From the NCBI GenBank assembly GCA_002688925.1, contig NZEC01000020.1, positions 1 through 44,090 on the forward strand: a stretch of DNA of 44,090 nucleotides, read 5' to 3'. Shown here piece by piece: positions 13,544 through 33,667 of this stretch (position 1 is the stretch's first letter; each line of letters starts with the position of its first letter). This DNA is from an archaeon. GTDB taxonomy: Archaea > Nanobdellota > Nanobdellia > Woesearchaeales > GW2011-AR4. Below the pieces are notes generated by a model. It did no database searches. It saw only the letters and a list, made by a program, of their open reading frames with translations, and was not told the origin of the DNA. The position numbers and the translations under genes were made by a program.

Positions 13544-14293
13544 TCACTCTAGATGCATATATTCCCCATAAGTAAAAAAACCAACAAGCTGCTTCATCCT
13601 GGCCAATTTAGGAAACAAATCTTTTTCTAAGCTGTTGACATTTTCAAACAATTCAAATATTTCCGGCTTGAAAATATAAATGCCCGCATTAACAATATTT
13701 GTTGAACTGTGCTTTGGCTTTTCATGGAAATCAACAATAAAATCCCCATCTAATATTGCTGTTCCATAGCCCTCTATTTTCTCTCTTGTCATCAATCCCA
13801 TTGCAGCCATCTTATCAGTCTCTAAATGCTTTTTTGCCATCTTTATCAAATCAAAATTATTATAGGTATCTCCTGACATTACAACAAAGCTTCCCTTTAA
13901 TTTATCCTTTATTGCCTCAAGCGCATTTGCATTTCCTTTTACATCTTTTTCAACAACTTCAACATTTACTTTAGAGTCATTTAGTTCACTTAAAAAAAGA
14001 TTAATATTTTTTGTATGCTGTGTTACAATAAAAACATTATTTATGTTATTTTTATGGAAAAAATCCAATTGACTCTTTATCAAAGGCATTCCTTTAATAT
14101 CTCTTACAGATAATTTCTGGTGCTCTCCTTTTAAAAGGATTACAGCAGTGTTAATAGATTGTTCCTGCAGGCCTTTCCTCAGAAAAAATTCCACTGCCTG
14201 GCTCCTTGACCTTATAATATTTCCATCTACCTTGCTGTCTACTAAATCAAGCAAGGGCTTGTCCAGACTTATTGCTATTTTAGGTTTTTTCAT
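13544..14293 (-). CDS. Ribbon-helix-helix DNA-binding domain fused to NDP-sugar pyrophosphorylase-like nucleotidyltransferase
   Basis: N-term KPKIAISLDKPLLDLVDSKVDGNIIRSRSQAVEFFLRKGL (RHH) then AVILLKGEHQKLSVRDIKGMPLIKSQLDFFHKNNINNVFIVT…VMSGDTYNNFDL; start chosen at MKKPKI. Confidence 0.87.
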   Translation of the reverse strand: MKKPKIAISLDKPLLDLVDSKVDGNIIRSRSQAVEFFLRKGLQEQSINTAVILLKGEHQKLSVRDIKGMPLIKSQLDFFHKNNINNVFIVTQHTKNINLFLSELNDSKVNVEVVEKDVKGNANALEAIKDKLKGSFVVMSGDTYNNFDLIKMAKKHLETDKMAAMGLMTREKIEGYGTAILDGDFIVDFHEKPKHSSTNIVNAGIYIFKPEIFELFENVNSLEKDLFPKLARMKQLVGFFTYGEYMHLE

Positions 14294-14304
14294 AGGTATG
14301 AAAT

Positions 14305-14323
14305 AGTAGTACAAGTTCATACT
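14305..14323. promoter_or_regulatory. Imperfect operator-like palindrome AGTAGTAC-AAG-TTCATACT
   Basis: Same TTCATACT half-site and 3-nt spacer as the perfect palindrome at 14392-14410; adjacent to a TATA-like tract. Confidence 0.55.
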
Positions 14324-14391
14324 TTATATATTTTTCGCTTTATATATAGTCTGGAGAACATATTTATTATCGAAACATTTATATATAAGCA

Positions 14392-14410
14392 AGTATGAAC
14401 AATTCATACT
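14392..14410. promoter_or_regulatory. Perfect operator-like palindrome AGTATGAA-CAA-TTCATACT
   Basis: 8+8 bp perfect inverted repeat between a TATA-like element (tttatatataag, about 14379-14389) and the ATG at 14411. Confidence 0.75.
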
Positions 14411-14767
14411 ATGACTCAACATAAAGAAGTAAAGAAAGAATGGGGAAAAGAAGAATGGATAACAAATAGAGATTACTGCGGAAAAAAGCTGACACTAAAC
14501 AAAGGCTTCAGATGTTCAATGCATTACCACAAAAACAAAGATGAAACATTCTATATCTTAAAAGGCAGAGTTTTGATGGAAACAAACAATGAAAAAAGAA
14601 TAATGCTTCCCGGAGATTCAATTTTGATAACGCCAAATACAAAGCATCGCTTCACAGGCCTTGAAGACTCTGAAATAATGGAATTCTCAACACATCATGA
14701 GGATTCTGACTCATACAGGGATGAATTATCCGGAAAAGTTGATTTAGATAAACTGGATTTAAAATGA
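14411..14767 (+). CDS. Cupin-domain protein (sugar-phosphate isomerase-like)
   Basis: FRCSMHYHKNKDETFYILKGRVLMETNNEKRIMLPGDSILITPNTKHRF cupin motifs. Confidence 0.9.
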   Translation: MTQHKEVKKEWGKEEWITNRDYCGKKLTLNKGFRCSMHYHKNKDETFYILKGRVLMETNNEKRIMLPGDSILITPNTKHRFTGLEDSEIMEFSTHHEDSDSYRDELSGKVDLDKLDLK

Positions 14768-15657
14768 AATGCTTAGTGACAGGAGGCGCAGGATTCATTG
14801 GCTCAAATCTGGCCTTGGAATTAGAAAAACAAGGGCATGAAGTTACTGTTGCAGATAATTTAATATCAGGATCAAAAGAAAATCTTGATGGTTTCAAGGG
14901 AAAATTCATCCAAATGGATATATCCAAGCCATTCGAATTAAACGAAAATTTTGATATTATATTCCACGAAGCCGCTATAACCGACCCGAGATTTAAGGAT
15001 GATGATGAAACAATAAGAGCTAATGTTGAGGGATTCAAAAACATAATAGCTCTTGCAAAAAAAAACAATGCAAAATTAATCTATGCCTCAACTGCAGGAT
15101 TATACGGAAATGGTAAAGTGCCAATGAAAGAAGACCAGAAAAAAGAGATTTTAAGCGCTTACGGAAGCTCAAAACTTAAGATGGATGAAATTGCCTCAGA
15201 ATATTTTGACAAAATACACATAGTAGGATTAAGATACTTTAATGTCTTTGGCCCAAGAGAAGCAAATAAAGGAAAGCCTGCATCCATGGTTTATCACCTA
15301 AGCAGACAGATTAAATCAGGAAAAAATCCAAGAATCTTTAAGTTTGGCGAGCAAAAACGCGACCATATTTATGTAAAAGATGTTGTAGATGCCACAATAT
15401 TTGCCGTAAATGCAAAAAGTGGTATTTATAATATCGGCACTGGAATTGCAACAACCTTTAATGAATTAATAAAAGTATTGAATGAAGCCTTGAAAACTAA
15501 CCTGAATCCTGAATATTTTGACATGCCTTATGACCCAAAAACATATCAAAAAAATACTCAAGCAGATACAAAAAATGCAGAAGAATTTATTGGTTTTAAG
15601 GCTAAATGGAGCTTAAAAGACGCAATTAAGGATTACATGGGGATGTTATATGAATAA
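14764..15657 (+). CDS. NAD-dependent epimerase (SDR; ADP-heptose 6-epimerase / UDP-hexose 4-epimerase-like)
   Basis: TGGAGFIGSNLALEL Rossmann motif; LRYFNVFGPRE. Confidence 0.92.
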   Translation: MKCLVTGGAGFIGSNLALELEKQGHEVTVADNLISGSKENLDGFKGKFIQMDISKPFELNENFDIIFHEAAITDPRFKDDDETIRANVEGFKNIIALAKKNNAKLIYASTAGLYGNGKVPMKEDQKKEILSAYGSSKLKMDEIASEYFDKIHIVGLRYFNVFGPREANKGKPASMVYHLSRQIKSGKNPRIFKFGEQKRDHIYVKDVVDATIFAVNAKSGIYNIGTGIATTFNELIKVLNEALKTNLNPEYFDMPYDPKTYQKNTQADTKNAEEFIGFKAKWSLKDAIKDYMGMLYE

Positions 15658-16633
15658 AGAAAAATTGCTTAAAATTATTGAAAATTTTAATGAAAAGAAA
15701 ATCCTTGTTGTAGGGGATATAATGCTTGACAAGTCTATCTGGGGGGAAGTTTCAAGGATCAGCCCGGAAGCTCCTGTCCAGGTTGTTGATGTTTCGAAGG
15801 AAAGTTATTCTCCGGGAGCAGCAGCCAATGTTGCAAATAATATCTCAGCATTAAACGCAGAGGCATTCATGGTTGGGATTATAGGAAATGATGCTGCAAA
15901 AAACATATTGATCCCAAAACTAAAAAATAGCAGTATTGATGTTGATGGAATTTTTATTGACACCAATAAGCCGACAATACAAAAAGTGCGCGTTATTGGA
16001 AGAAGCCAGCAGCTTTTGAGGTTTGATTACGAGAAAAAAGGATACATTGATGACAGCACAGAAAACAAAATTTTTGAATTCATACTTAAAAAAATAAACG
16101 AGATAGATGCAGTAATAGTCTCTGATTACGCAAAAGGCATCATAACAAAAAAATTAATGGAGAAATTAATAGAGCTTTGCAATAAAAACAACAAGATAAT
16201 TGTAATAGACCCCAAGCCAAAGCATAAAAGCTTCTATAAAAACTCAACATTAATTACCCCGAACCACACAGAAGCTCAAAAAATGACAGGAAATGAAGAA
16301 GAGGAAAACATAGACAAATATGTTGAGGTAATGGGAAAAAAGCTGCAACAGGAACTAAATAGCAATGTCCTGATAACAAGGGGAGAAAAAGGCATGTCCC
16401 TGTTTGAAAAAAATAATGAAATAACTCACATCCCGACTTATGCAAAAGAGGTTTTTGATATTGTAGGGGCAGGAGACACTTCTGTTGCAACTTTAACATT
16501 AGCCTTGGTAGCAGGAGCCACATACAAGGAAGCAGCCGTAATAGCAAACCATGCAGCAGGAATCACTGTTGGAAAAGTAGGAACTTCCATAGTCAGCATT
16601 GATGAACTGAAAAAAAGCATTGAAAATGAATAA
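15650..16633 (+). CDS. D-glycero-beta-D-manno-heptose-7-phosphate kinase-like PfkB kinase (HldA / RfaE domain I)
   Basis: VVGDIMLDKSIWGEVSRISPEAPVQVV, GAAANVANNISALNA, QQLLRFDYE, VFDIVGAGDTSVATL. Confidence 0.92.
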   Translation: MNKEKLLKIIENFNEKKILVVGDIMLDKSIWGEVSRISPEAPVQVVDVSKESYSPGAAANVANNISALNAEAFMVGIIGNDAAKNILIPKLKNSSIDVDGIFIDTNKPTIQKVRVIGRSQQLLRFDYEKKGYIDDSTENKIFEFILKKINEIDAVIVSDYAKGIITKKLMEKLIELCNKNNKIIVIDPKPKHKSFYKNSTLITPNHTEAQKMTGNEEEENIDKYVEVMGKKLQQELNSNVLITRGEKGMSLFEKNNEITHIPTYAKEVFDIVGAGDTSVATLTLALVAGATYKEAAVIANHAAGITVGKVGTSIVSIDELKKSIENE

Positions 16634-17174
16634 GGCAATTTTTTTGGATAGGGATGGTGTATTAAATAAGGATACAGGTTATCCGCATAAAATTGAAGAT
16701 TTCATATTATCAGATGGTGTTGTTTCCGGTCTTAAAAAATTGAAAGACTTTAAGTTTTTTATAATCTCTAATCAATCCGGGATAGGGCGTGGCTATTATA
16801 CAGAAGAGGATTTCCATAATTTTAATAATCACCTATTAGATATACTAAATAAGAATAACATAAAAATAGAAAGAACTTATTTCTGCCCGCATCACCCTAA
16901 TGAAGTTTGCGATTGCAGAAAACCAAACACAAAATTCATAAAGGAAGCAACAAAAGAATTTAACATCGACTTAACAAATTCCTGGGTCATAGGGGATCAT
17001 CCTCACGATGTAGAAATGGGAATTAATGCAGGCTGCAAAGCAATTTATTTACTAACAGGGCATGGGAAAAAGCACTTTGATGAACTGAAAAAGGAAAACA
17101 TAAAACCTAATTTTACCGCAGAGAATTTCCTGCAGGCTGCAGAATTTATAATACATAATAAAACAAACAATTAA
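16620..17174 (+). CDS. D-glycero-D-manno-heptose 1,7-bisphosphate phosphatase-like HAD phosphatase (GmhB)
   Basis: AIFLDRDGVLNKDTGY, NQSGIGRGYYTEEDF, CPHHPNEVCDCRKP, WVIGDHPHDVEMGINAGCKAIYL. Confidence 0.9.
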   Translation: MKMNKAIFLDRDGVLNKDTGYPHKIEDFILSDGVVSGLKKLKDFKFFIISNQSGIGRGYYTEEDFHNFNNHLLDILNKNNIKIERTYFCPHHPNEVCDCRKPNTKFIKEATKEFNIDLTNSWVIGDHPHDVEMGINAGCKAIYLLTGHGKKHFDELKKENIKPNFTAENFLQAAEFIIHNKTNN

Positions 17175-17183
17175 ATCAACAAA

Positions 17184-17672
17184 ATGTCACAGCAAAAAAT
17201 AAAAACCATTAACGAACTAAAGGATATTTCAGAAAAATTAAGAAATCAGAATAAAAAAGTTATAACTACTAATGGAGTTTTTGACATTCTTCATATCGGC
17301 CATATAAGATATTTGAAAGAAGCTAAGAAACTAGGAGATGTCCTCATAGTAGGTATTAACTCAGATTTTTCTGTAAAAAACATAAAAGAGCCACAAAGAC
17401 CACTTAATAATCAAGATGATCGTGCCGAAGCCATAGCTTCTTTAGAAGTGGTTAATTTTGTAGTTATTTTCAATGAACCCAACCCAATTTATCTTCTTGG
17501 AGTTATAAAGCCAAGCATTCATGTAAAAGGAGGAGATTATAATTTATCTGAAATTGTTGAAAAAGATACTGTAGAAAGTAATAATGGAAAAGTCGTATTG
17601 ATTCCGGAAGTCAAGGGTTATTCCACAACAAATTTCATTAAAAAAATATTAGATATATATAAAAACCAATAA
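17184..17672 (+). CDS. Heptose-1-phosphate adenylyltransferase-like protein (HldC / RfaE domain II)
   Basis: TTNGVFDILHIGHIRYLKEAKKLGDVLIVGINSD…DRAEAIASLEVVNFVVIF…HVKGGDY…GYSTTNFI. Confidence 0.92.
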   Translation: MSQQKIKTINELKDISEKLRNQNKKVITTNGVFDILHIGHIRYLKEAKKLGDVLIVGINSDFSVKNIKEPQRPLNNQDDRAEAIASLEVVNFVVIFNEPNPIYLLGVIKPSIHVKGGDYNLSEIVEKDTVESNNGKVVLIPEVKGYSTTNFIKKILDIYKNQ

Positions 17673-17703: not shown

Positions 17704-18402
17704 ATGAAAAAATTATCTATAATAATCCCGGTATATGATGAAGAAAAAACTATCTTAGATATAATTGGTAAAGTAAAAAAAGTAAATCTAAAAAACATAA
17801 AAAAAGAAATAGTGATTGTAGATGACTTTTCCACAGATAATACAAGAAAAATCCTGGAGAAATTAAAAGACGGAAGCATAAAGATATTTTTCCACAAAAA
17901 AAACCAGGGAAAAGGCACTGCAATACGGACAGGCTTAAATCACATTACCGGTGACATAATCCTTATTCAGGATGCTGATTCTGAATATGATCCAAGAGAA
18001 TATACCAAGCTTCTGAAGCCGATTATTGAAGATAATAAAAAAGTAGTTTACGGCACTAGGTTGGAGTATATAAAGCATAATGTCAAGAATATGAACAGGC
18101 TACATTTCATTGGAAATGTTTTTTTAACTCACACCACAAACCTTTTGTACAATACAAAAATAACAGACATGGAAACAGGCTATAAGGTCTTTAAAAAAGA
18201 GGTTATAGAAAAAATAAGGTTCAAGGCAAAAAGGTTTGATTTTGAGCCAGAAATAACAGCCAAAATACTCAAGCAAGGATATAAAATTTATGAGGTCCCT
18301 ATAACATTCAAAGCCAGAAAATTTAACGAAGGCAAAAAGATAACTTGGCGCGATGGTATAAAAGCCCTGTTTTATCTTATAAAATACAGGTTTACTGACT
18401 GA
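17704..18402 (+). CDS. Family 2 glycosyltransferase (dolichol-phosphate mannosyltransferase-like)
   Basis: IIIPVYDEEKTI, DDFSTDNT, GKGTAIRTGL, QDADSEYDP. Confidence 0.92.
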   Translation: MKKLSIIIPVYDEEKTILDIIGKVKKVNLKNIKKEIVIVDDFSTDNTRKILEKLKDGSIKIFFHKKNQGKGTAIRTGLNHITGDIILIQDADSEYDPREYTKLLKPIIEDNKKVVYGTRLEYIKHNVKNMNRLHFIGNVFLTHTTNLLYNTKITDMETGYKVFKKEVIEKIRFKAKRFDFEPEITAKILKQGYKIYEVPITFKARKFNEGKKITWRDGIKALFYLIKYRFTD

Positions 18403-18994
18403 CTTTCTTGTTTAAATCCAGCTCATCATCCTGCACATAAGCTAAATTATTCTTCAATGCAATATATGCTTTTTCAAGTTCCCTTCCAAGATAAGCTGCA
18501 TGATCCATTCTTATGTCTAATTTTTCCTTGTTCAATATTGTTTGATAGATATCAAGCGGTTTTTCCCCTGTAACTTTTAGCACAATCTTGTTCTTTTCAT
18601 TGCAGAAAGCAACCTCAATTTTATTTTTCTCATTATTGACTTTAATCAAGAAATACCCTTTATCATCAACAACAAATTCCTTTGCATCATCATATTCTGC
18701 AATTACTTCCTTACCTTCTTCATCGTTAACTTTATTTCCCACAATATCTGCACCCTTTACAGGGTCAATAACTCTTATTGCATTCACAGGGCATCCTTTC
18801 GCTGCTTCTATCAGCGCATCTGCTGTTTCAGGTTCAGAATCAACTTCTAAAGTGTAAATTCCTTTACCAATATCATCAGATTCTTTTAAGATTGCCTTGC
18901 TTCCCTCAAATTCAAAATAATCCGGAGCCAAAGCAACGCAGCTGCCCTGCCCAATACATGTATTTTTATTATATTCAATATGTAATTTTGCCAT
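18392..18994 (-). CDS. Ferredoxin fused to a C-terminal domain (possibly DUF4346-like)
   Basis: CIGQGSCVALAPDYFEF…CPVNAI ferredoxin pattern; start set at MAKLHIEYN; C-term ends IRMDHAAYLGRELEKAYIALK. Confidence 0.82.
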   Translation of the reverse strand: MAKLHIEYNKNTCIGQGSCVALAPDYFEFEGSKAILKESDDIGKGIYTLEVDSEPETADALIEAAKGCPVNAIRVIDPVKGADIVGNKVNDEEGKEVIAEYDDAKEFVVDDKGYFLIKVNNEKNKIEVAFCNEKNKIVLKVTGEKPLDIYQTILNKEKLDIRMDHAAYLGRELEKAYIALKNNLAYVQDDELDLNKKVSQ

Positions 18995-19051
18995 AACAAA
19001 AGTTAATGTATATCCATTTATAAACGTTATTGAAAAAAGATTAGTGTAAAA

Positions 19052-19223
19052 GTTGGTGCTTGTGCGTAAATTGCCAATGAAGCAAGTCCAAAAAGGTTGC
19101 GCTAAACGACCTGAGCAAAACGCAGTGCTGAAAAATCGAAGATTTTTGGCATGCCGAAAATTGAAAATTTTCCAGCATTTTGCGAAGTTGAGAAGCCATC
19201 TAAGGCCCCGCACAAGCACCAAC
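19052..19223. repeat. MITE-like dispersed element copy A (172 bp, 15-bp perfect TIRs, includes 52-bp internal cassette)
   Basis: GTTGGTGCTTGTGCG … CGCACAAGCACCAAC; near-identical to the reverse complement of copy B at 43959-44078. Confidence 0.93.
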
Positions 19224-20876: not shown

Positions 20877-21332
20877 ATGGCACGAATGCATTCAAGGAAG
20901 CATGGAAAAAGCGGCTCCAAAAAACTGATTAAGAAATCATTACCGACATGGCTTAGCTACAAGCCGATGGAAGTAGAGATTTTAATAGCTAAGCTGGCTA
21001 AAGAAGGCAAAACTTCATCAGAAATAGGGACAATCCTGAGAGACACATACGGAGTTCCGGACATAAGGCTGCTCTGCAAGAAAAAAATTTCAGACATACT
21101 GAAAGAAAAGAAGGCAGCTCCTGAGATTCCTGATGACCTGATTTCTTTAATAAGAAGGTCTGTGGCAATAAGAAAGCATCTGGAAGCAAACCACAAGGAC
21201 GAAACAGCAAAACGAGGCCTTATTCTGACAGAATCCAAAATCAAGAGGCTGACAAAATATTATAAGGAAGCAGGAAAGCTGGAATCAGGATGGAAATTCG
21301 ATCCTCAAAGAGCAGGATTCTTCATGAAGTAA
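20877..21332 (+). CDS. rps15: Ribosomal protein S15 (uS15)
   Basis: ARMHSRKHGKSGSKK…GLILTESKIKRLTKYYKEAGKL. Confidence 0.96.
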   Translation: MARMHSRKHGKSGSKKLIKKSLPTWLSYKPMEVEILIAKLAKEGKTSSEIGTILRDTYGVPDIRLLCKKKISDILKEKKAAPEIPDDLISLIRRSVAIRKHLEANHKDETAKRGLILTESKIKRLTKYYKEAGKLESGWKFDPQRAGFFMK

Positions 21333-21360: not shown

Positions 21361-22443
21361 TCAATCACTTCTCATAACTATATAATCAGCAAAATCATTG
21401 AAAAACTTATATCCTTGCTCATTTAAATCCGATTTATTCAGGTATTTTTTGGCTTCCATGATTTTTTTATTTGCATATTTTTGGACATAATCCAAGGCCC
21501 CTGTATCTTTTATTACGCTAATGCACCCTTTAATCTCAGATTCTGTTGCCTTGTTATTTCCTAAAACCTTAGAAAGAAATTTTTTCTGTGATTCATTGCT
21601 GTTTTGCAGCGCTTTTATAATGATTAATGTACTGTTGCCCTTCCTTAGGTCTGTTCCATGAACCCTTCCTTTATTCATTTTTTCGCTCAAATCCATAATA
21701 TCATCATGCAGCTGAAAAGCAAGCGCAATAGAATTAGCATATTTTTCCAAATTTTCCAGCTGATAAGGTTTTGCATTATTCAATACAGCCCCAAACATTA
21801 TTGAGGCAGAAAGCAATGAAGCTGTCTTATTCATGGCTGCAGCAATATAGTCTTCTTCACTTAATTCTTTCCTGAAAGAAAGCATCAAATCAAAACTCTG
21901 ACCTTCATTTATTTTTTGATAAGCATCATTGAAAATTTTAAGTGATTTGTTTTTTAGATTTCCATCTAATTTCGATTTAATAACGCAGTAATTTGACAAA
22001 GAATACAAAATATTCCCCTGTATTATTGCCATTGACACACTAAACCTCTTTGAAAAGCTGTCAAATAAAGGGCCTTTGTATTTTTTATCTGTAAAGTTTT
22101 TTTTGAAGTAAGACTCAAAAAGCTTGTGCATTGCAGGCTTATTTCTCCTTAATGAATCCTCATCCATAATATCATCATGTATTAAAGAAGATGCATGAAA
22201 AAGTTCCGGAGTTATAGCAAGAGGATAGATTTTTTCCTCATCAGAGTCATTAATTGACTTATACGCCATTATAGCTGCTATTGGCCTCATTCTCTTTCCC
22301 GGTCTGAGTGTAAATTCCTTAAGGTAGCTATAGCATGCTTTCAGAAACTCATCTTTTGTTTTCTTTATTTCATCTTCAAAAAGCTTATTCAACTCTTTAT
22401 CTACAATGATGTTGTATTTTTTTAATGTGTTATTAAAATTCAT
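21361..22443 (-). CDS. Polyprenyl synthetase (geranylgeranyl/farnesyl diphosphate synthase)
   Basis: Two Asp-rich motifs LIHDDIMDED and FQLHDDIMDL; RPGKRMRP. Confidence 0.95.
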   Translation of the reverse strand: MNFNNTLKKYNIIVDKELNKLFEDEIKKTKDEFLKACYSYLKEFTLRPGKRMRPIAAIMAYKSINDSDEEKIYPLAITPELFHASSLIHDDIMDEDSLRRNKPAMHKLFESYFKKNFTDKKYKGPLFDSFSKRFSVSMAIIQGNILYSLSNYCVIKSKLDGNLKNKSLKIFNDAYQKINEGQSFDLMLSFRKELSEEDYIAAAMNKTASLLSASIMFGAVLNNAKPYQLENLEKYANSIALAFQLHDDIMDLSEKMNKGRVHGTDLRKGNSTLIIIKALQNSNESQKKFLSKVLGNNKATESEIKGCISVIKDTGALDYVQKYANKKIMEAKKYLNKSDLNEQGYKFFNDFADYIVMRSD

Positions 22444-22452
22444 TTTAAGTTT

Positions 22453-23379
22453 TTATCTGTTATCTCTCACCTGCCTTATCCTATCAACAACCTCGTCAAT
22501 TGTAATATCTGGGGTAGATGCTCCTGCAGTTATGCCAATATGCTCTTTATTTAAAACCCATTCTTTTTTTAATTGATCAGCAAGCTGTATGAAATGAGTT
22601 TCTACATTCAGGGTTTTGCATTTTGCAGCCAGCTCCTTGCTGTTGCTTGAGTTTTTCCCTCCGATAACAATCATCACATCTGCCTTCTTGGCAATATCCT
22701 CTGTATCTGCCTGCCTTTGTTTTGTCGGATTACAAATTGTATCCACAAAAACAAAATTTTTTGAAAGCCTGTTGAGGCTTAAGTGAATTTTTTCAAAATT
22801 TTTCTCTGACAGGCTATTGATATTATCTATCAGCTCTTTATACCCTGGAACAGACATTGTGGTCTGGGATATTACAGCCACTTTCTTGAAATTATTTTTT
22901 TTAATATATTCCACAACAGAAGCAGCATCTTTTGGGCTCTCAACAATAAATGTATCTTCGCCTTTTATGTAATAGCTTGTGCCAACAGCTTCAGGGTGGT
23001 TTTTTTTCCCAAACAATATGACTTCGTAGCCGTTATTCTTTAATTTAACAGCTACTTTATGCACTAAAGTTACTAAAGGACAAGTCGCATCATTGAGGTT
23101 TTTCCCTTTTACTATTGACTTTTCCTGCAGTTTCTGGTAGGTTGTTTTTGGCTCTCCATGAGCTCTTAATACAGTTACGGAATTTTGAGGTATATCATCA
23201 ATTTTGTCTGCAAATTCTATCCCTTTTTTCTCCAAATCCTCGATTACCTTTTCATTATGCACAAGCTGCCCATAGACATAAACCTTGCCATTATTTTCCG
23301 ATGCAGTCTCCTCAGCAATTTCTATTGCGTGCTTAACGCCAAAACAGAAGCCGGCATGCTTTGCAATTAAAATTTCCAT
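22453..23379 (-). CDS. ispH: 4-hydroxy-3-methylbut-2-enyl diphosphate reductase (IspH/LytB)
   Basis: AGFCFGVKHAIEIA, DATCPLV, VDTICNPTKQRQ, GGKNSSNSKEL. Confidence 0.97.
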   Translation of the reverse strand: MEILIAKHAGFCFGVKHAIEIAEETASENNGKVYVYGQLVHNEKVIEDLEKKGIEFADKIDDIPQNSVTVLRAHGEPKTTYQKLQEKSIVKGKNLNDATCPLVTLVHKVAVKLKNNGYEVILFGKKNHPEAVGTSYYIKGEDTFIVESPKDAASVVEYIKKNNFKKVAVISQTTMSVPGYKELIDNINSLSEKNFEKIHLSLNRLSKNFVFVDTICNPTKQRQADTEDIAKKADVMIVIGGKNSSNSKELAAKCKTLNVETHFIQLADQLKKEWVLNKEHIGITAGASTPDITIDEVVDRIRQVRDNR

Positions 23380-23402
23380 GCTTTTTGGGTATTGTTTTCA
23401 GT

Positions 23403-24266
23403 TTAAAAAGTTTTAGTAAGAAATACAAAAGGATACTCATCTTTGATTTTATAATAAGCCCCTCTTGCTTCATATATGCTATTGAAAATCCCAAAAACCG
23501 TAGGGCCAGAACCGGATACCATAGAACTTAGCGCTCCATTTTTTTTTAAATCTGATTTTATGTCATTTATTATCTTGTGCTTTTTTTCCACTATCCGGGA
23601 AAAATCATTATGAATATTTTCAGATATTTTTTTTATGTCTTTTTTCCGCATAGACTTAACCAATTCCTTTATGTTTTTAGCCTTATTATTAATCTTTGAC
23701 TTTTTTTTATTTTTGTCAAATTCTTTATAAGCCCATGCTGTCGATATATTAATGCCCGGATTAACTAAAACAACATTAAGGGATTTATTTTTCAATGGCT
23801 TTATTTTATTTCCAATCCCCATTATAATTGAACTTTTCCCGGAAATAAAGAAAGGCACATCAGAGCCGATTTCCATAGCCAGATTTAATAGTCTTTTTTG
23901 GTTAAGTTTAAGCTTCCATAATTTATTCAATGCAATTAAAGTAGCTGCTGCATTTGAGCTTCCCCCCCCTAGACCTGCAGCAAGAGGAATGTTTTTAGTG
24001 ATATTTATCTTTATGCCGGAATTAATGTCAAATTTATTCTTTAAGAGAAGCGCCGCCCTATATGAAAGATTATCCTCATTTTCCAAACCTTTATTGCTGC
24101 TTTCAATAATTATGCTATTATCATCAATTTTTTCAAAAGAAATATCATCATGTAGCTTTATCGGGAGCATTAAAGATTCTATATTATGATAATTGTTTTT
24201 CAGCCTTTTTCCGATTTTCAGATACAGGTTTATTTTCGCGTATGATTTGACAAGCATGATTTTCAA
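23403..24266 (-). CDS. ispE: 4-diphosphocytidyl-2-C-methyl-D-erythritol kinase (IspE)
   Basis: SYAKINLYLKIGKR, NIPLAAGLGGGSSNAAATL, GSDVPFF, VSGSGPTVFGIF. Confidence 0.96.
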   Translation of the reverse strand: MKIMLVKSYAKINLYLKIGKRLKNNYHNIESLMLPIKLHDDISFEKIDDNSIIIESSNKGLENEDNLSYRAALLLKNKFDINSGIKINITKNIPLAAGLGGGSSNAAATLIALNKLWKLKLNQKRLLNLAMEIGSDVPFFISGKSSIIMGIGNKIKPLKNKSLNVVLVNPGINISTAWAYKEFDKNKKKSKINNKAKNIKELVKSMRKKDIKKISENIHNDFSRIVEKKHKIINDIKSDLKKNGALSSMVSGSGPTVFGIFNSIYEARGAYYKIKDEYPFVFLTKTF

Positions 24267-24282
24267 ATAATGTTTTTATATA

Positions 24283-25434
24283 TTAATGTTGCTGATTTAA
24301 TACAACCGCAACAAAACACTGCATGCCATTTCCTTTCCCAAACTCTGTAAGCTCTTCTCCGGAAGTTGCTGCAATGCCAATATTCTCTTTTTTTATCTTC
24401 AGGATTTTTGAAAGCGCATTTTTAATATTATCCAGATGCTCATCAATTCTTGGATTTTTTCCTTCCAGCATCACAGCTATATTCTTTATCTTATAATTCT
24501 TCTCAATTACCTTGTCAAGCATGAATTCAACATATTTTTTGCTGTCTGTAATCCCATCCTTGCACATTTTATCAGCATAAAATCCTAATGATTTCATGCC
24601 AATTGCTGTGCTTAGGGCATTAAACAAGGCATGCAGTAAAACATCTCCATCCGAATTTGCATCAAACCCATTTTTATCTGAAATCTTAACAGAGCCTATA
24701 ACTAATGCCTTTTTATCTGTAAACTTATGGCTGTCCTGGCCAATCCCAATCCTGGAAGCGTTAATGAGCTTGTTCGCATAGGCCAAATCATGCTGGTCTG
24801 TGATTTTAATATTTTCCCTCGAGCAGTAAACAACCTTTACTTGACCGTTCATCCTTTCAACTAAGCTTGCGTCATCAGTCCCATAGAACTTATTCCTGTA
24901 AGCTATCTCAAATGCCCTTTTTGCCAGAAAATATTTCATTGTTTGTGGGGTTTGCACCTGCCATAATAATCTCCTATCAATTGTCTGCTTTACAATACCA
25001 TCCTCCACAACTTTTATCGTATCTTTTGCAGGAAAGCCAACAACAGCCGCCCCGTATTTCTTAGCAGCCTTGATAGAATTGTTAATAGTACCTTCATCCA
25101 CAAACGGATTAGCAGCATTATGTATTATTATAATATCATCATTACCTGCTTTATCTATCGCCTTTATCCCATTATACACAGAATCCTGCCTCTCAACCCC
25201 CCCTTCCACAATCTTCTTGACTTTAGTGAATTTATTTACCTTTACAATAGTTTCAAATGCTTTTTTATCTTCAGGATTGACAACTAGGATAATATTATTG
25301 ACATTTTTGCAATCCTGAAACTTCTTGATTGTATGATAAATTATGGGCTCCTTATTCAGCAAAAGAAAAAGCTTGTTTATCCTTTTCTTCATCCTTTTCC
25401 CTTTCCCGCCTGCTACAATGATTGCTGTGTTCAT
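24283..25434 (-). CDS. ispDF: Bifunctional IspD-IspF (MEP cytidylyltransferase / MEcPP synthase)
   Basis: IspD: AIIVAGGKGKRM, GGVERQDSVYNGI, QTPQTM; IspF: RIGIGQDSHKF, NSDGDVLLHALFNAL, single ORF. Confidence 0.93.
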   Translation of the reverse strand: MNTAIIVAGGKGKRMKKRINKLFLLLNKEPIIYHTIKKFQDCKNVNNIILVVNPEDKKAFETIVKVNKFTKVKKIVEGGVERQDSVYNGIKAIDKAGNDDIIIIHNAANPFVDEGTINNSIKAAKKYGAAVVGFPAKDTIKVVEDGIVKQTIDRRLLWQVQTPQTMKYFLAKRAFEIAYRNKFYGTDDASLVERMNGQVKVVYCSRENIKITDQHDLAYANKLINASRIGIGQDSHKFTDKKALVIGSVKISDKNGFDANSDGDVLLHALFNALSTAIGMKSLGFYADKMCKDGITDSKKYVEFMLDKVIEKNYKIKNIAVMLEGKNPRIDEHLDNIKNALSKILKIKKENIGIAATSGEELTEFGKGNGMQCFVAVVLNQQH

Positions 25435-26576
25435 AATTTATCAATCTCTTTTTTTGTATTTTCTTTTGTGTCTTTATCAATTTTTAATATTGTGTTTAAA
25501 TCTGGATTATTGATTATTTTATGGCTGTCCATTGATTCTTTTATTATTCTGGGAATGTCCATAAATTTAATTTTATTATTTAAAAATGCTTCAACAGCAA
25601 TCTCATTTGCAGCATTTAATACAGCAGGCATTGTCCCACCTAAATTCCCGGCATCATAAGCATATCTAAGGCATGAAAACAAATCAAGATTCGGCTCTTC
25701 AAAGCTTAAATTTTTCACTTCCAGAAGATTTAATTTTTTCATATTCAATTTAAGCCTTTTCGGATAGCTTAATGCATACTGTATCGGAAGCTTCATACTT
25801 GGAAGCCCAAGCTGCGCAATGACAGAATTGTCCTTAAACTCAACTAAAGAGTGTATTATACTTTGAGGATGCACCACAACCTCGATTTTATCATATTTAA
25901 TTCCATAAAGCCAGTGCGCTTCTATAACTTCAAATCCCTTGTTCATTAAAGTTGCAGAATCAATGGTAATCTTATTTCCCATGTTCCATGTCGGATGGTT
26001 TAAAGCATCTTTAGCCGTTACATTTTCCATCTGTTCTTTAGAATTACTCTTAAAAGGACCACCTGAAGCTGTTATTATTATCTTATTTACATCAATAATA
26101 TCCTCCCCATTAACGCACTGGAAAATAGCACTATGCTCAGAATCAATAGGCATCAAATCAGCATTATTCTTCTTAACTTCTTCCATCACAACAGAACCTG
26201 CTGTAACCAGTGTTTCTTTATTAGCCAGTGCAATATTTTTCCCTTTTCTTATCGCTTCAACTGTCGGCCTTACCCCTATTGAGCCAACTAAAGAATTGAC
26301 AACAGTATCCGCATTATCTAATACAGATATTCTTACAACCCCTTCAATTCCGGAATAAACCTCAATATTTACCTGCTCTTTCAGTAAATCAGCCTTTTCC
26401 TTATCCATAATCGCAACTGCTTCAGGCTTAAACTCATCAATCTGCTTTTTCAATAAATCAATGTTAGTATTAGCCGTTAATCCTGCTACTTTAAACTCAT
26501 TAGGATTATTTTTAACTATTTCCAGAGTTTGAGTTCCAATGCTTCCAGTAGATCCTAATATGGATAATGTTTTCAT
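25431..26576 (-). CDS. dxr: 1-deoxy-D-xylulose 5-phosphate reductoisomerase
   Basis: SILGSTGSIGTQTLEIV, ANKETLVTAG, PIDSEHSAIFQC, ITASGGPF, NMGNKITIDSATLMNKG; start trimmed to MKTLSILG. Confidence 0.97.
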   Translation of the reverse strand: MKTLSILGSTGSIGTQTLEIVKNNPNEFKVAGLTANTNIDLLKKQIDEFKPEAVAIMDKEKADLLKEQVNIEVYSGIEGVVRISVLDNADTVVNSLVGSIGVRPTVEAIRKGKNIALANKETLVTAGSVVMEEVKKNNADLMPIDSEHSAIFQCVNGEDIIDVNKIIITASGGPFKSNSKEQMENVTAKDALNHPTWNMGNKITIDSATLMNKGFEVIEAHWLYGIKYDKIEVVVHPQSIIHSLVEFKDNSVIAQLGLPSMKLPIQYALSYPKRLKLNMKKLNLLEVKNLSFEEPNLDLFSCLRYAYDAGNLGGTMPAVLNAANEIAVEAFLNNKIKFMDIPRIIKESMDSHKIINNPDLNTILKIDKDTKENTKKEIDKL

Positions 26577-26684: not shown

Positions 26685-28040
26685 ATGGTACTGGATAAGC
26701 TAGGCAGCTCGTTAAAGGGAACTTTACAGAAAATAGCAAAATCAATTTTTGTAGATGATAAGCTGATAAATGAGCTGATTAAGGACATACAAAGGGCTTT
26801 GCTTCAATCTGATATGAATGTAAAGCTGGTTTTTGATTTAACATCTAAGATTAAGGAAAGGATAAAAAAAGAAAAAGCCCTCTCAGGACTGACAAAAAAA
26901 GAGCAGCTTGTCAATATTGTCTATGAAGAACTTGTCATTTTTCTGGGAAAAGAGCAGCACAAGATAGAAATCACGAAAAAACCCTTCAAAATCATGCTTG
27001 TTGGATTGTTTGGAAGTGGAAAGACAACAAGCGCAGGAAAGCTTGCAAAATACTTTACAAAAAGAGGCAATAAAGTCGCATTAGTTGGATTGGATGTGCA
27101 TAGGCCTGCTGCTATGACCCAATTAGAGCAGGTTTCCAAACAGGCTAATACTCCCTGTTTCATAAACAAAAAAGAAAAAAATCCAATAAGGATATACAAT
27201 GAATTCAAAAATGAGCTTAAAAAGTTCGATGTAATAATCATTGATACATCAGGAAGAGACGCACTATCAAAAGATTTGATCCAGGAAATAGAATCCCTTA
27301 ACAAGGAAATAAAGCCGCATGAGAATTTGCTTGTCATTTCTGCAGATATAGGCCAAGCAGCGGAAAAACAAGCTACCCAATTTCATAAAAGCTGCAATAT
27401 TACTGGGGTTATTGTTTCTAAAATGGATGGGACTGCCAGAGGAGGAGGCGCTTTAACTGCATGCGCTGTTTCCAAAGCTCCAATTAAATTTATTGGTGTT
27501 GGAGAAAAAATAGATGATTTAGAGCATTTTAATCCACAGGGCTTTGTTGGAAGATTATTAGGGATGGGAGACTTAGAAGCCTTGCTGGAAAAGGCAAAAC
27601 ATGCCATTAAGGCAGAAGATGCTGAGGATTTAGGAAAAAAATTCCTTAAAGGGGAATTTAATCTAATAGATTTGTATGAGCAAATGGCTGCCATGAAGAA
27701 AATGGGATCATTAAAGAAAATAGTTGAGATGGTGCCTGGTTTTTCATCATTGCAACTTCCAAAAGAGATGCTTGATGTTCAGGAAGAAAAGCTGGAAAAA
27801 TGGAAAATCGCTATGCTAAGCATGACAAAAGAAGAGCTGGAAAATCCTGATGAGATTACAAGCGCAAGAATAGACAGGATAAGCAAAGGCTCTGCAATGC
27901 CAACATCTGTTATCAGGGAACTGATAAAACAATACAGGCAAAGCAAAAAAGTTGTTAAGATGTTTAAAGGCAGCAAAGGAGACATGAGCAAGATGATGAA
28001 AAAGTTCGGCGGAAAGCTTCCAGGAAATTTTAAGATGTAA
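26685..28040 (+). CDS. srp54: Signal recognition particle protein SRP54
   Basis: GLFGSGKTTSAGKLA, DTSGRDA, KMDGTARGGGAL, M-domain. Confidence 0.97.
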   Translation: MVLDKLGSSLKGTLQKIAKSIFVDDKLINELIKDIQRALLQSDMNVKLVFDLTSKIKERIKKEKALSGLTKKEQLVNIVYEELVIFLGKEQHKIEITKKPFKIMLVGLFGSGKTTSAGKLAKYFTKRGNKVALVGLDVHRPAAMTQLEQVSKQANTPCFINKKEKNPIRIYNEFKNELKKFDVIIIDTSGRDALSKDLIQEIESLNKEIKPHENLLVISADIGQAAEKQATQFHKSCNITGVIVSKMDGTARGGGALTACAVSKAPIKFIGVGEKIDDLEHFNPQGFVGRLLGMGDLEALLEKAKHAIKAEDAEDLGKKFLKGEFNLIDLYEQMAAMKKMGSLKKIVEMVPGFSSLQLPKEMLDVQEEKLEKWKIAMLSMTKEELENPDEITSARIDRISKGSAMPTSVIRELIKQYRQSKKVVKMFKGSKGDMSKMMKKFGGKLPGNFKM

Positions 28041-31153: not shown

Positions 31154-31594
31154 ATGGCCAGCAACAAAACCATAAAGCAGGAATTTGCCAAAAAATATTT
31201 CACTATAGAAGAAGCTGAAAGATTTCTCCCAAAAATTAAAAAAATTTTAAAAAGAACAATAAAGCTAAACAAAGCCCTTGAGTTATTGAGTTCCATTGAA
31301 ATTGAAGTATACGATGAAGATTATGAAAACCTGAAAAAAGTTACAAAAATAAATAAGCAGTTCCACAAACTCTCCTATGAATTCTACGCAAACATAGAAA
31401 AGATTGAAGATATGGGATGCATGATAACAGACCTGGAGATAGGAATCGTTGATTTCCTGCATAAATCCCATGGAAAAGACATATTGTTATGCTGGAATCT
31501 CGGAGAAAAAAGAATAAGGTGCTGGCACGAACTGGACTCAGACTGCGCATTCAGAAAGCCGATACTGAATTTAAACAGGGCAGGAAGGTTTTGA
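31154..31594 (+). CDS. DUF2203 family protein
   Basis: FTIEEAERFLPKIKKIL, GIVDF…KDILLCWNLGEKRIRCWHELD. Confidence 0.85.
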   Translation: MASNKTIKQEFAKKYFTIEEAERFLPKIKKILKRTIKLNKALELLSSIEIEVYDEDYENLKKVTKINKQFHKLSYEFYANIEKIEDMGCMITDLEIGIVDFLHKSHGKDILLCWNLGEKRIRCWHELDSDCAFRKPILNLNRAGRF

Positions 31595-31751: not shown

Positions 31752-32792
31752 ATGAGGAATAAAACAAGAGAAATTAGTATAGGAAATCTAAAGATTGGCT
31801 CAAACAACCCAATACCAATCCAGTCAATGACTAACACAGATACAACTGATATAGATTCAACTATAAAACAAATCAAGGAATTAGAGGAAGCAGGCTGTGA
31901 AATCATAAGAGTTTCAACTCCTACACTTGAAGCAGCAAAAGCACTAAAGGAAATAAAGGAAAAAATAAACATTCCTTTAGTGGCAGATATCCATTTTGAC
32001 TACAAAATAGCACTGGAAGCTGCAAAGCATGCAGATAAGCTCAGAATAAATCCCGGAAATATCGGAGATAAAGAAAAAATAAAATTAGTGGTAGATGCTG
32101 CAAAAGAAAACAAAATTCCAATAAGGATTGGAGTTAATTTAGGCTCATTAGAAAAAGATATCTTCCAAAAATACGGTTATACAGCAGAGGCAATGGTAGA
32201 ATCTGCATTAAGGCATATAAAAATTCTTGAAAATTTAAATTTCCATGATATTGTTGTTTCTTTAAAGGCATCAGACGTCAATATAATGGTAGATGCTTAT
32301 AGATTATTTGCAAAAAAATCAAATTATCCATTGCACTTAGGAGTTACAGAAGCAGGCAGCAAATTTTCAGGAACAATCAAGAGCGCAATTGGAATAGGAA
32401 CTTTGCTTGAAGAGGGCATAGGAGACACAATTAGAGTTTCACTTTCAGATAATCCAACAGAAGAAGTAAAAGTAGCTAAACAGATTCTAAAAACACTAGG
32501 ATTAAAAAATTCAGGAATAGAGATAACAAGCTGCCCAACCTGCGCCAGATCACAAATAAATGTAATTAAAATAGTAGAGAAACTTGAAAACCAGACAGAG
32601 AAAATAAAAAAGCCAGTCCATGTTGCAGTGATGGGATGCGCAGTCAATGGCCCTGGAGAAAGTAAAAAATCAGATATAGGGATTGTAGGCGCTCCAGACA
32701 GCAATTTATTATATAAAAAAGGGGAGATTGTGACAAGAATCAAGGATGATGATATCTTAGATGTTTTATTAAAGGAAATTGATAAATTCTAA
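31752..32792 (+). CDS. ispG: 4-hydroxy-3-methylbut-2-en-1-yl diphosphate synthase (IspG/GcpE)
   Basis: IPIQSMTNTDTTD, PLVADIHFDYKIAL, RINPGNIG, TSCPTCARSQINV, VAVMGCAVNGPGE. Confidence 0.97.
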   Translation: MRNKTREISIGNLKIGSNNPIPIQSMTNTDTTDIDSTIKQIKELEEAGCEIIRVSTPTLEAAKALKEIKEKINIPLVADIHFDYKIALEAAKHADKLRINPGNIGDKEKIKLVVDAAKENKIPIRIGVNLGSLEKDIFQKYGYTAEAMVESALRHIKILENLNFHDIVVSLKASDVNIMVDAYRLFAKKSNYPLHLGVTEAGSKFSGTIKSAIGIGTLLEEGIGDTIRVSLSDNPTEEVKVAKQILKTLGLKNSGIEITSCPTCARSQINVIKIVEKLENQTEKIKKPVHVAVMGCAVNGPGESKKSDIGIVGAPDSNLLYKKGEIVTRIKDDDILDVLLKEIDKF

Positions 32793-33446: not shown

Positions 33447-33519
33447 AGCCTCTGGCGAGAGTTGCACTCGCGACCTCGACATTACCAATGTCGCGCAATA
33501 GCTACTATGCTACAGAGGC
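33447..33519 (-). tRNA. tRNA-Thr(GGT)
   Basis: GCCTCTG…CAGAGGC acceptor, anticodon arm CGACA-TTGGTAA-TGTCG, T-arm. Confidence 0.93.
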
Positions 33520-33527
33520 ATAAAAAA

Positions 33528-33667
33528 TGCGGGGGAAGGGATTTGAACCCTCGGACACACTAAGTGACAGGATATCTCCCACTTACACATGGGTGCCACA
33601 TTATGGCACTGGTCTTAAGTTTCGCAGCAATGCTCCTGCGCGTTTGACCAGGCTTCGCTACCCCCGC
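33528..33667 (-). tRNA. tRNA-Leu(TAA), apparently containing two introns (about 33574..33613 and 33620..33633)
   Basis: GCGGGGG/CCCCCGC acceptor, CAGGA[…]CTTAAGA[…]TCCTG anticodon arm, variable arm CACT-T-AGTG, T-arm GAGGG-TTCAAAT-CCCTT. Confidence 0.87.

Follow-up and report, generated by a model that had tools for sequence, protein, structure and literature searches.

A bacterial-type MEP isoprenoid gene block without dxs in a clade of DPANN archaea

A contig of a Woesearchaeales archaeon encodes every enzyme of the bacterial MEP isoprenoid pathway except Dxs, and profile searches find no dxs in the rest of its genome or in the clade of related genomes to which it belongs. In the explanation that we favour, the bacterial MEP pathway (Dxr, IspDF, IspE, IspG and IspH) would have been acquired horizontally and inherited together as a block in this DPANN family, making IPP and DMAPP. 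An ancestral dxs would have been lost in the window's clade, with DXP entering from elsewhere, either through a side reaction catalysed by a thiamine-diphosphate enzyme or by uptake from a partner cell, both of which we favour. The C5 units would most likely be converted by the trans-polyprenyl synthase of the block, together with a cis-prenyltransferase encoded elsewhere in the genome, into polyprenyl-phosphate sugar carriers, and not into archaeal ether lipids. We hold this combined reading (a horizontally acquired block, a lost dxs, another source of DXP and polyprenyl-phosphate carriers as the product) with moderate confidence.

The window, that is, the whole stretch of 44,090 nt analysed here, is a complete contig (C20) of genome G000, which comprises 864,511 bases at 84.9% completeness. 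Gene absences in this genome rest on protein-family profile searches, and at this completeness any single absence is weak by itself. Counts of dxs, GGGPS and cis-prenyltransferase refer to 99 genomes of the order, and those of FGGY kinases and UbiA to 35 genomes. The features concerned are as follows, with bit scores and, after the stroke, model cut-offs.

20877-21332, plus strand: archaeal ribosomal protein S15, convergent conserved neighbour of the MEP block (NF006331, 192/154)
21361-22443, minus strand: trans-polyprenyl diphosphate synthase (PF00348, 190/27)
22453-23379, minus strand: IspH, HMBPP reductase (TIGR00216, 268/188)
23403-24257, minus strand: IspE, CDP-ME kinase (TIGR00154, 254/139)
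24283-25434, minus strand: IspDF fusion (IspD, TIGR00453, 214/181; IspF, TIGR00151, 142/116)
25431-26576, minus strand: Dxr, DXP reductoisomerase (TIGR00243, 515/316; also placed by the tree)
26685-28040, plus strand: SRP54, divergent neighbour of dxr (TIGR00959, 413 bits, and TIGR01425, 376 bits, both under cut-off)
31154-31594, plus strand: DUF2203 protein (PF09969, 98.6 bits; also from gene neighbourhoods)
31752-32792, plus strand: IspG (TIGR00612, 455/280)

Five intact open reading frames on the minus strand occupy 21361-26576; IspDF and Dxr overlap by 4 bp and the other neighbours are 9-25 bp apart, in agreement with the original prediction of five co-directional, tightly packed genes. 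Dxr, IspD, IspE, IspF, IspG and IspH each score above their NCBIfam equivalog cut-offs, bearing out the claim that, with IspG at 31752, all MEP steps but Dxs lie in the window. The clear catalytic motifs that had been described are largely present: the Fe–S cysteines of IspH (Cys 12, 100 and 216, within the expected motifs) and of IspG, the GLGGGSSNAA motif of IspE, the PIDSEHSA motif of Dxr and both DDxxD motifs of the polyprenyl synthase are intact. IspE is taken to start at the ATG at 24257, with a TTG upstream at 24266 as a possible alternative.

The exception is the IspD half of the fusion, in which the alignment places HNAANP where the bacterial HDxARP stands (HDGARP in Bacillus subtilis IspD). 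The metal-binding Asp and the Arg of HDxARP are active-site residues of Escherichia coli IspD. The HNxxNP change could reduce or alter the activity of the predicted enzyme. All aligned archaeal relatives but one carry HN..(N/S)(P/S), G067 alone having the bacterial form, and because dxs-bearing relatives show the same HNxxNP change, it is not tied to the loss of dxs. Bacterial IspD/IspF fusion enzymes (PDB 8xhu and 1w55) are sequence relatives of the window's IspDF and share its two-domain order, but the window's IspD has HNxxNP in place of HDxARP, as judged against B. subtilis IspD.

The block lies in an archaeal setting. Its GC content (0.31-0.37) is near that of the window (0.34), and it is flanked, as first described, by archaeal S15, which exceeds its cut-off, and by SRP54, whose matches stay below theirs. 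The original prediction had named a chimeric join as a possible artefact. Independent assemblies of relatives repeat the order dxr-ispDF-ispE-ispH, which often continues with the synthase and a convergent S15, and this identical arrangement beside an archaeal gene rules out a chimeric contig and, with the NCBIfam scores, upholds the description of a bacterial-type MEP cluster in an archaeal genome. In dxs-bearing members of the family the block is bordered by L12-L10-L1 on one side and S15 on the other, and dxs and ispG precede dxr. IspG adjoins dxr in relatives but stands apart from the block in the window, where ispG and the DUF2203 gene lie about 5 kb from dxr, separated by SRP54, two unassigned open reading frames and a GluRS-like open reading frame; DUF2203 adjoins ispG in the window and in several dxs-less relatives. 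Also near the block are a family-2 glycosyltransferase gene (17704-18402) and a heptose-nucleotide gene set (15650-17672).

That Dxs is missing from the window had been pointed out at the outset, with a genome-wide search for dxs proposed as a check. The observation stands but was too mild, because that search recovered no dxs above cut-off in the whole genome, the best TIGR00204 match (58 bits; cut-off, 466) being a pyruvate dehydrogenase (PDH) E1 beta subunit, and because the clade is likewise without it. The pathway might nevertheless be complete, with dxs in the unassembled 15% of the genome: the assembly is 84.9% complete, dxs is widespread among family members, and in genus g10 contig ends or gaps account for the lack of dxs in two genomes (G019 and G022). 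Full-length dxs above cut-off occurs in 27 of the 99 genomes, in the family mostly upstream of ispG-dxr. However, ten dxr-bearing relatives also lack a detectable dxs, giving eleven family genomes (G000, G001, G003, G004, G006, G008, G010, G011, G013, G015 and G020) that span seven genera at 64-96% completeness; were the eleven absences independent, incompleteness alone would produce them with a chance of about 2e-10, the product of the missing fractions. Moreover, DUF2203 and ispG come immediately after L12-L10-L1 in G001, at the site of dxs in dxs-bearing relatives, and the contiguous assemblies of G001, G011 and G006 all have other genes at the spot upstream of ispG. These relatives and contiguous loci rule out an assembly gap at the level of the clade, and we consider a hidden dxs in the window's genome highly improbable.

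In a 59-protein Dxr tree, ten of the dxs-less Dxrs form one clade (bootstrap 90, SH-aLRT 89), nested in a well supported group; the rest of that group bears dxs except G022, the contig of which begins just before dxr. The eleventh, a fragment from G003, groups with this clade in an 81-row quick tree. A single loss of dxs in the window's clade would be the simplest reading of this topology, which does not itself prove the direction of change.

The same tree, of a kind that the original prediction had suggested as a check for horizontal transfer, places the archaeal Dxrs among Firmicutes sequences (the bacteria being among the matches listed in one pattern scan), which supports a bacterial origin. 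A single origin of the archaeal Dxrs has weak support (57/83, with bacteria again from the matches listed), and at that value we do not claim one donor for all of them. The placement among Firmicutes agrees with PMC8421398, which connects Dxr and IspG of Woesearchaeota subgroup J with Firmicutes, and IspDF with Candidatus Nealsonbacteria.

Novelty had been flagged as needing a check, and the cluster itself is not new. PMC8204110 and PMC8421398 already describe co-located MEP genes in Woesearchaeota, with a fused IspDF, an affinity to Firmicutes and no GGGPS. The window shows the traits of the subgroup J type of MEP cluster, namely the IspDF fusion, clustering and a Dxr nearest to Firmicutes (bacteria among the matches listed), and adds one genome to the published pattern. 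Like the window, subgroup J (PMC8421398) and a 52-genome clade (PMC8204110) have clustered MEP genes, fused IspDF, a Firmicutes-like Dxr and no GGGPS; unlike the window's clade, which is without dxs, they have dxs counted among the gained genes. A dxs-less Woesearchaeota clade is not described in the passages of these papers covered here. MEP genes without dxs have been reported in Micrarchaeota (PMC12892359), likewise a DPANN lineage that acquired most MEP genes but dxs horizontally; that is, however, another phylum and a separate acquisition, whereas in the window's clade dxs seems to have been present once and then lost. One Spiroplasma also lacks Dxs (PMC13001223).

A mevalonate route does not take the place of the MEP pathway in this genome. 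The proposed search for mevalonate enzymes recovered neither HMG-CoA reductase nor a mevalonate-type GHMP kinase in G000, so that the alternative of a complete mevalonate pathway without dxs, which had been raised against the prediction, falls away. The two GHMP kinases of the genome are IspE and a pantoate-kinase homologue, the latter in a CoA operon adjoining CoaBC and phosphopantothenate synthetase. Within the family, HMG-CoA reductase was found only in G001, inside a long open reading frame bearing AMP-binding domains.

What the pathway makes can be approached through the linked synthase and the prenyl-using enzymes. The 21361-22443 product had been called GGPPS. It is a polyprenyl synthase by its PF00348 score and paired DDxxD motifs, but it falls under every GGPPS equivalog cut-off (NF041003, 172/500; NF040698, 205/468), and GGPPS is therefore one possible product name only. 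It has Ser at positions -4 and -5 of the first DDxxD, without the bulky aromatic residue at -5, and lacks the His before GQ that marks type-III enzymes. By the product-type rules for trans-polyprenyl synthases reviewed in PMC9385802, the predicted enzyme does not belong to the archaeal type-I GGPPSs, and its product may be longer than C20.

The original prediction had the pathway feeding archaeal lipid or quinone-type isoprenoids. The linked polyprenyl synthase would suit that outcome, as would the UbiA-type prenyltransferases in some relatives (above cut-off in 12 of 35 genomes) and near the MEP genes of published Woesearchaeota (PMC8204110). On the other side, G000 has no UbiA and no GGGPS (PF01884), and the single GGGPS match over cut-off in the 99 genomes is a partial one of 98 residues in another family, although archaeal controls were positive; published subgroup J genomes are without GGGPS and DGGGPS (PMC8421398). 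We thus find no convincing GGGPS in these genomes and regard ether lipids or quinones as an improbable destination. By contrast, cis-prenyltransferase scores 254 bits in G000 and is above cut-off in 84 of the 99 genomes, among them many that yielded no dxr and no HMG-CoA reductase. Because no convincing GGGPS was found and cis-prenyltransferase is nearly universal, polyprenyl-phosphate sugar carriers, and not archaeal ether lipids, are probably the main product.

If dxs was lost in the clade, DXP must come from another source. Precedent for DXP without Dxs exists in E. coli, in which dxs mutants are rescued by mutant PDH E1 (AceE) or DHBP synthase RibB (PMC3424233). RibB is present in most family members, but here it keeps the wild-type Gly108 and Asp113 at the bypass positions and is encoded beside RibD; it therefore looks like an ordinary riboflavin enzyme, and we rejected RibB with the known E. 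coli mutations as the source. We also rejected salvage of deoxyxylulose through a pentulose kinase of the FGGY type, for which no family match exceeded the cut-off in any of 35 genomes, and an MTA-isoprenoid shunt, for which a RuBisCO-like protein (PF00016) occurs in just 1 of the 11 dxs-less family members (G013). DUF2203 as a substitute for dxs was set aside as a small protein that is present too in the dxs-bearing relative G016. The split transketolase, common in the family and present in most dxs-less relatives, was discarded for three reasons: it lies in an operon with transaldolase, it also occurs in dxs-bearing relatives and it was not found in G000.

PDH E1 is the only protein with the thiamine-diphosphate enzyme fold found in G000. 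It differs from the E. coli case in having a two-subunit E1 and not AceE, and the layout of its E1-E2 operon is alike in dxs-bearing and dxs-less relatives, so that nothing marks PDH as a DXP synthase. PDH E1 would thus be a hypothetical source of DXP, favoured together with uptake, and import is its main rival. In the latter case, DXP, 1-deoxyxylulose or a later MEP intermediate would come from a bacterial partner and the lower pathway alone would be used. Most DPANN archaea are regarded as symbionts (PMC8204110), and many relatives in the order are without MEP genes and HMG-CoA reductase yet keep cis-prenyltransferase and so apparently take prenyl precursors from outside; the lack of FGGY-type kinases, which leaves no E. 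coli XylB-like deoxyxylulose route in view, tells against import. We judge import unlikely on balance, while giving it real weight.

A Dxs-less block could also be a relic or serve another role, such as MEcPP acting as a stress signal, and non-isoprenoid roles of an incomplete MEP pathway have been discussed for Listeria (PMC13001223). Yet IspG and IspH, which act after MEcPP, are intact in the window, and Dxr shows no decay, with mostly 73-76% identity to dxs-less relatives of other genera; we consider this reading highly improbable. Under the reading that we prefer, with a retained MEP block fed by another source of DXP, one specific form is tentatively possible: a DPANN clade would run a working MEP pathway without Dxs, obtaining DXP from an enzyme new to that role in nature, perhaps PDH E1, only for polyprenyl-phosphate carriers.

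Loss of dxs throughout a clade that has kept the rest of the MEP pathway would make it testable whether natural isoprenoid synthesis through MEP can begin without Dxs, and which source it would draw on. These archaea would also fit a picture of cells that synthesize lipid carriers for sugars themselves but do not produce the ether lipids of their membranes.

The IspD half of the window's IspDF fusion (24283-25434) carries HNxxNP in place of the bacterial HDxARP, as alignment with relatives revealed, and the same replacement is found in the IspDF of nearly all aligned archaeal relatives, dxs-bearing and dxs-less alike. The other window features considered here are:

13544-17672, sugar-nucleotide gene set with homologues of heptose enzymes, in an archaeal host
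18392-19222, 4Fe-4S ferredoxin and PterinBD-DUF4346 domains in one protein (domain search)
31154-31594, DUF2203 gene adjoining ispG
33447-33519, tRNA-Thr (ARAGORN), adjoining the next match
33528-33667, tRNA match of 140 bases (Rfam)

Gene neighbourhoods showed that the DUF2203-ispG adjacency is common to the window and the dxs-less relatives G001, G006, G011 and G013. Among the dxs-bearing family members searched, DUF2203 was not found in five, unlike G016, which is dxs-bearing and has it.

In G038, a genome of the same order that is 97% complete, the dxs model gave no match whatever; its Dxr (stretch L076, 8961-10088) has unrelated genes as neighbours. The G001 genome holds an HMG-CoA reductase domain and MEP genes together, and a single long open reading frame there (stretch L037, 1486-4104) joins the HMG-CoA reductase domain to AMP-binding domains.

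The sugar-nucleotide set includes homologues of D-glycero-D-manno-heptose kinase, heptose bisphosphate phosphatase and heptose adenylyltransferase. The 140-base tRNA match is perhaps an intron-containing tRNA.

On another contig of the window's genome (C18; stretch L079, 6803-11412), a FabI-type enoyl-ACP reductase homologue lies near the operon for PDH E1 and E2, which hints at fatty-acid metabolism of the bacterial kind. As a guess, the ferredoxin/PterinBD-DUF4346 protein could possibly serve as electron donor to IspG and IspH.
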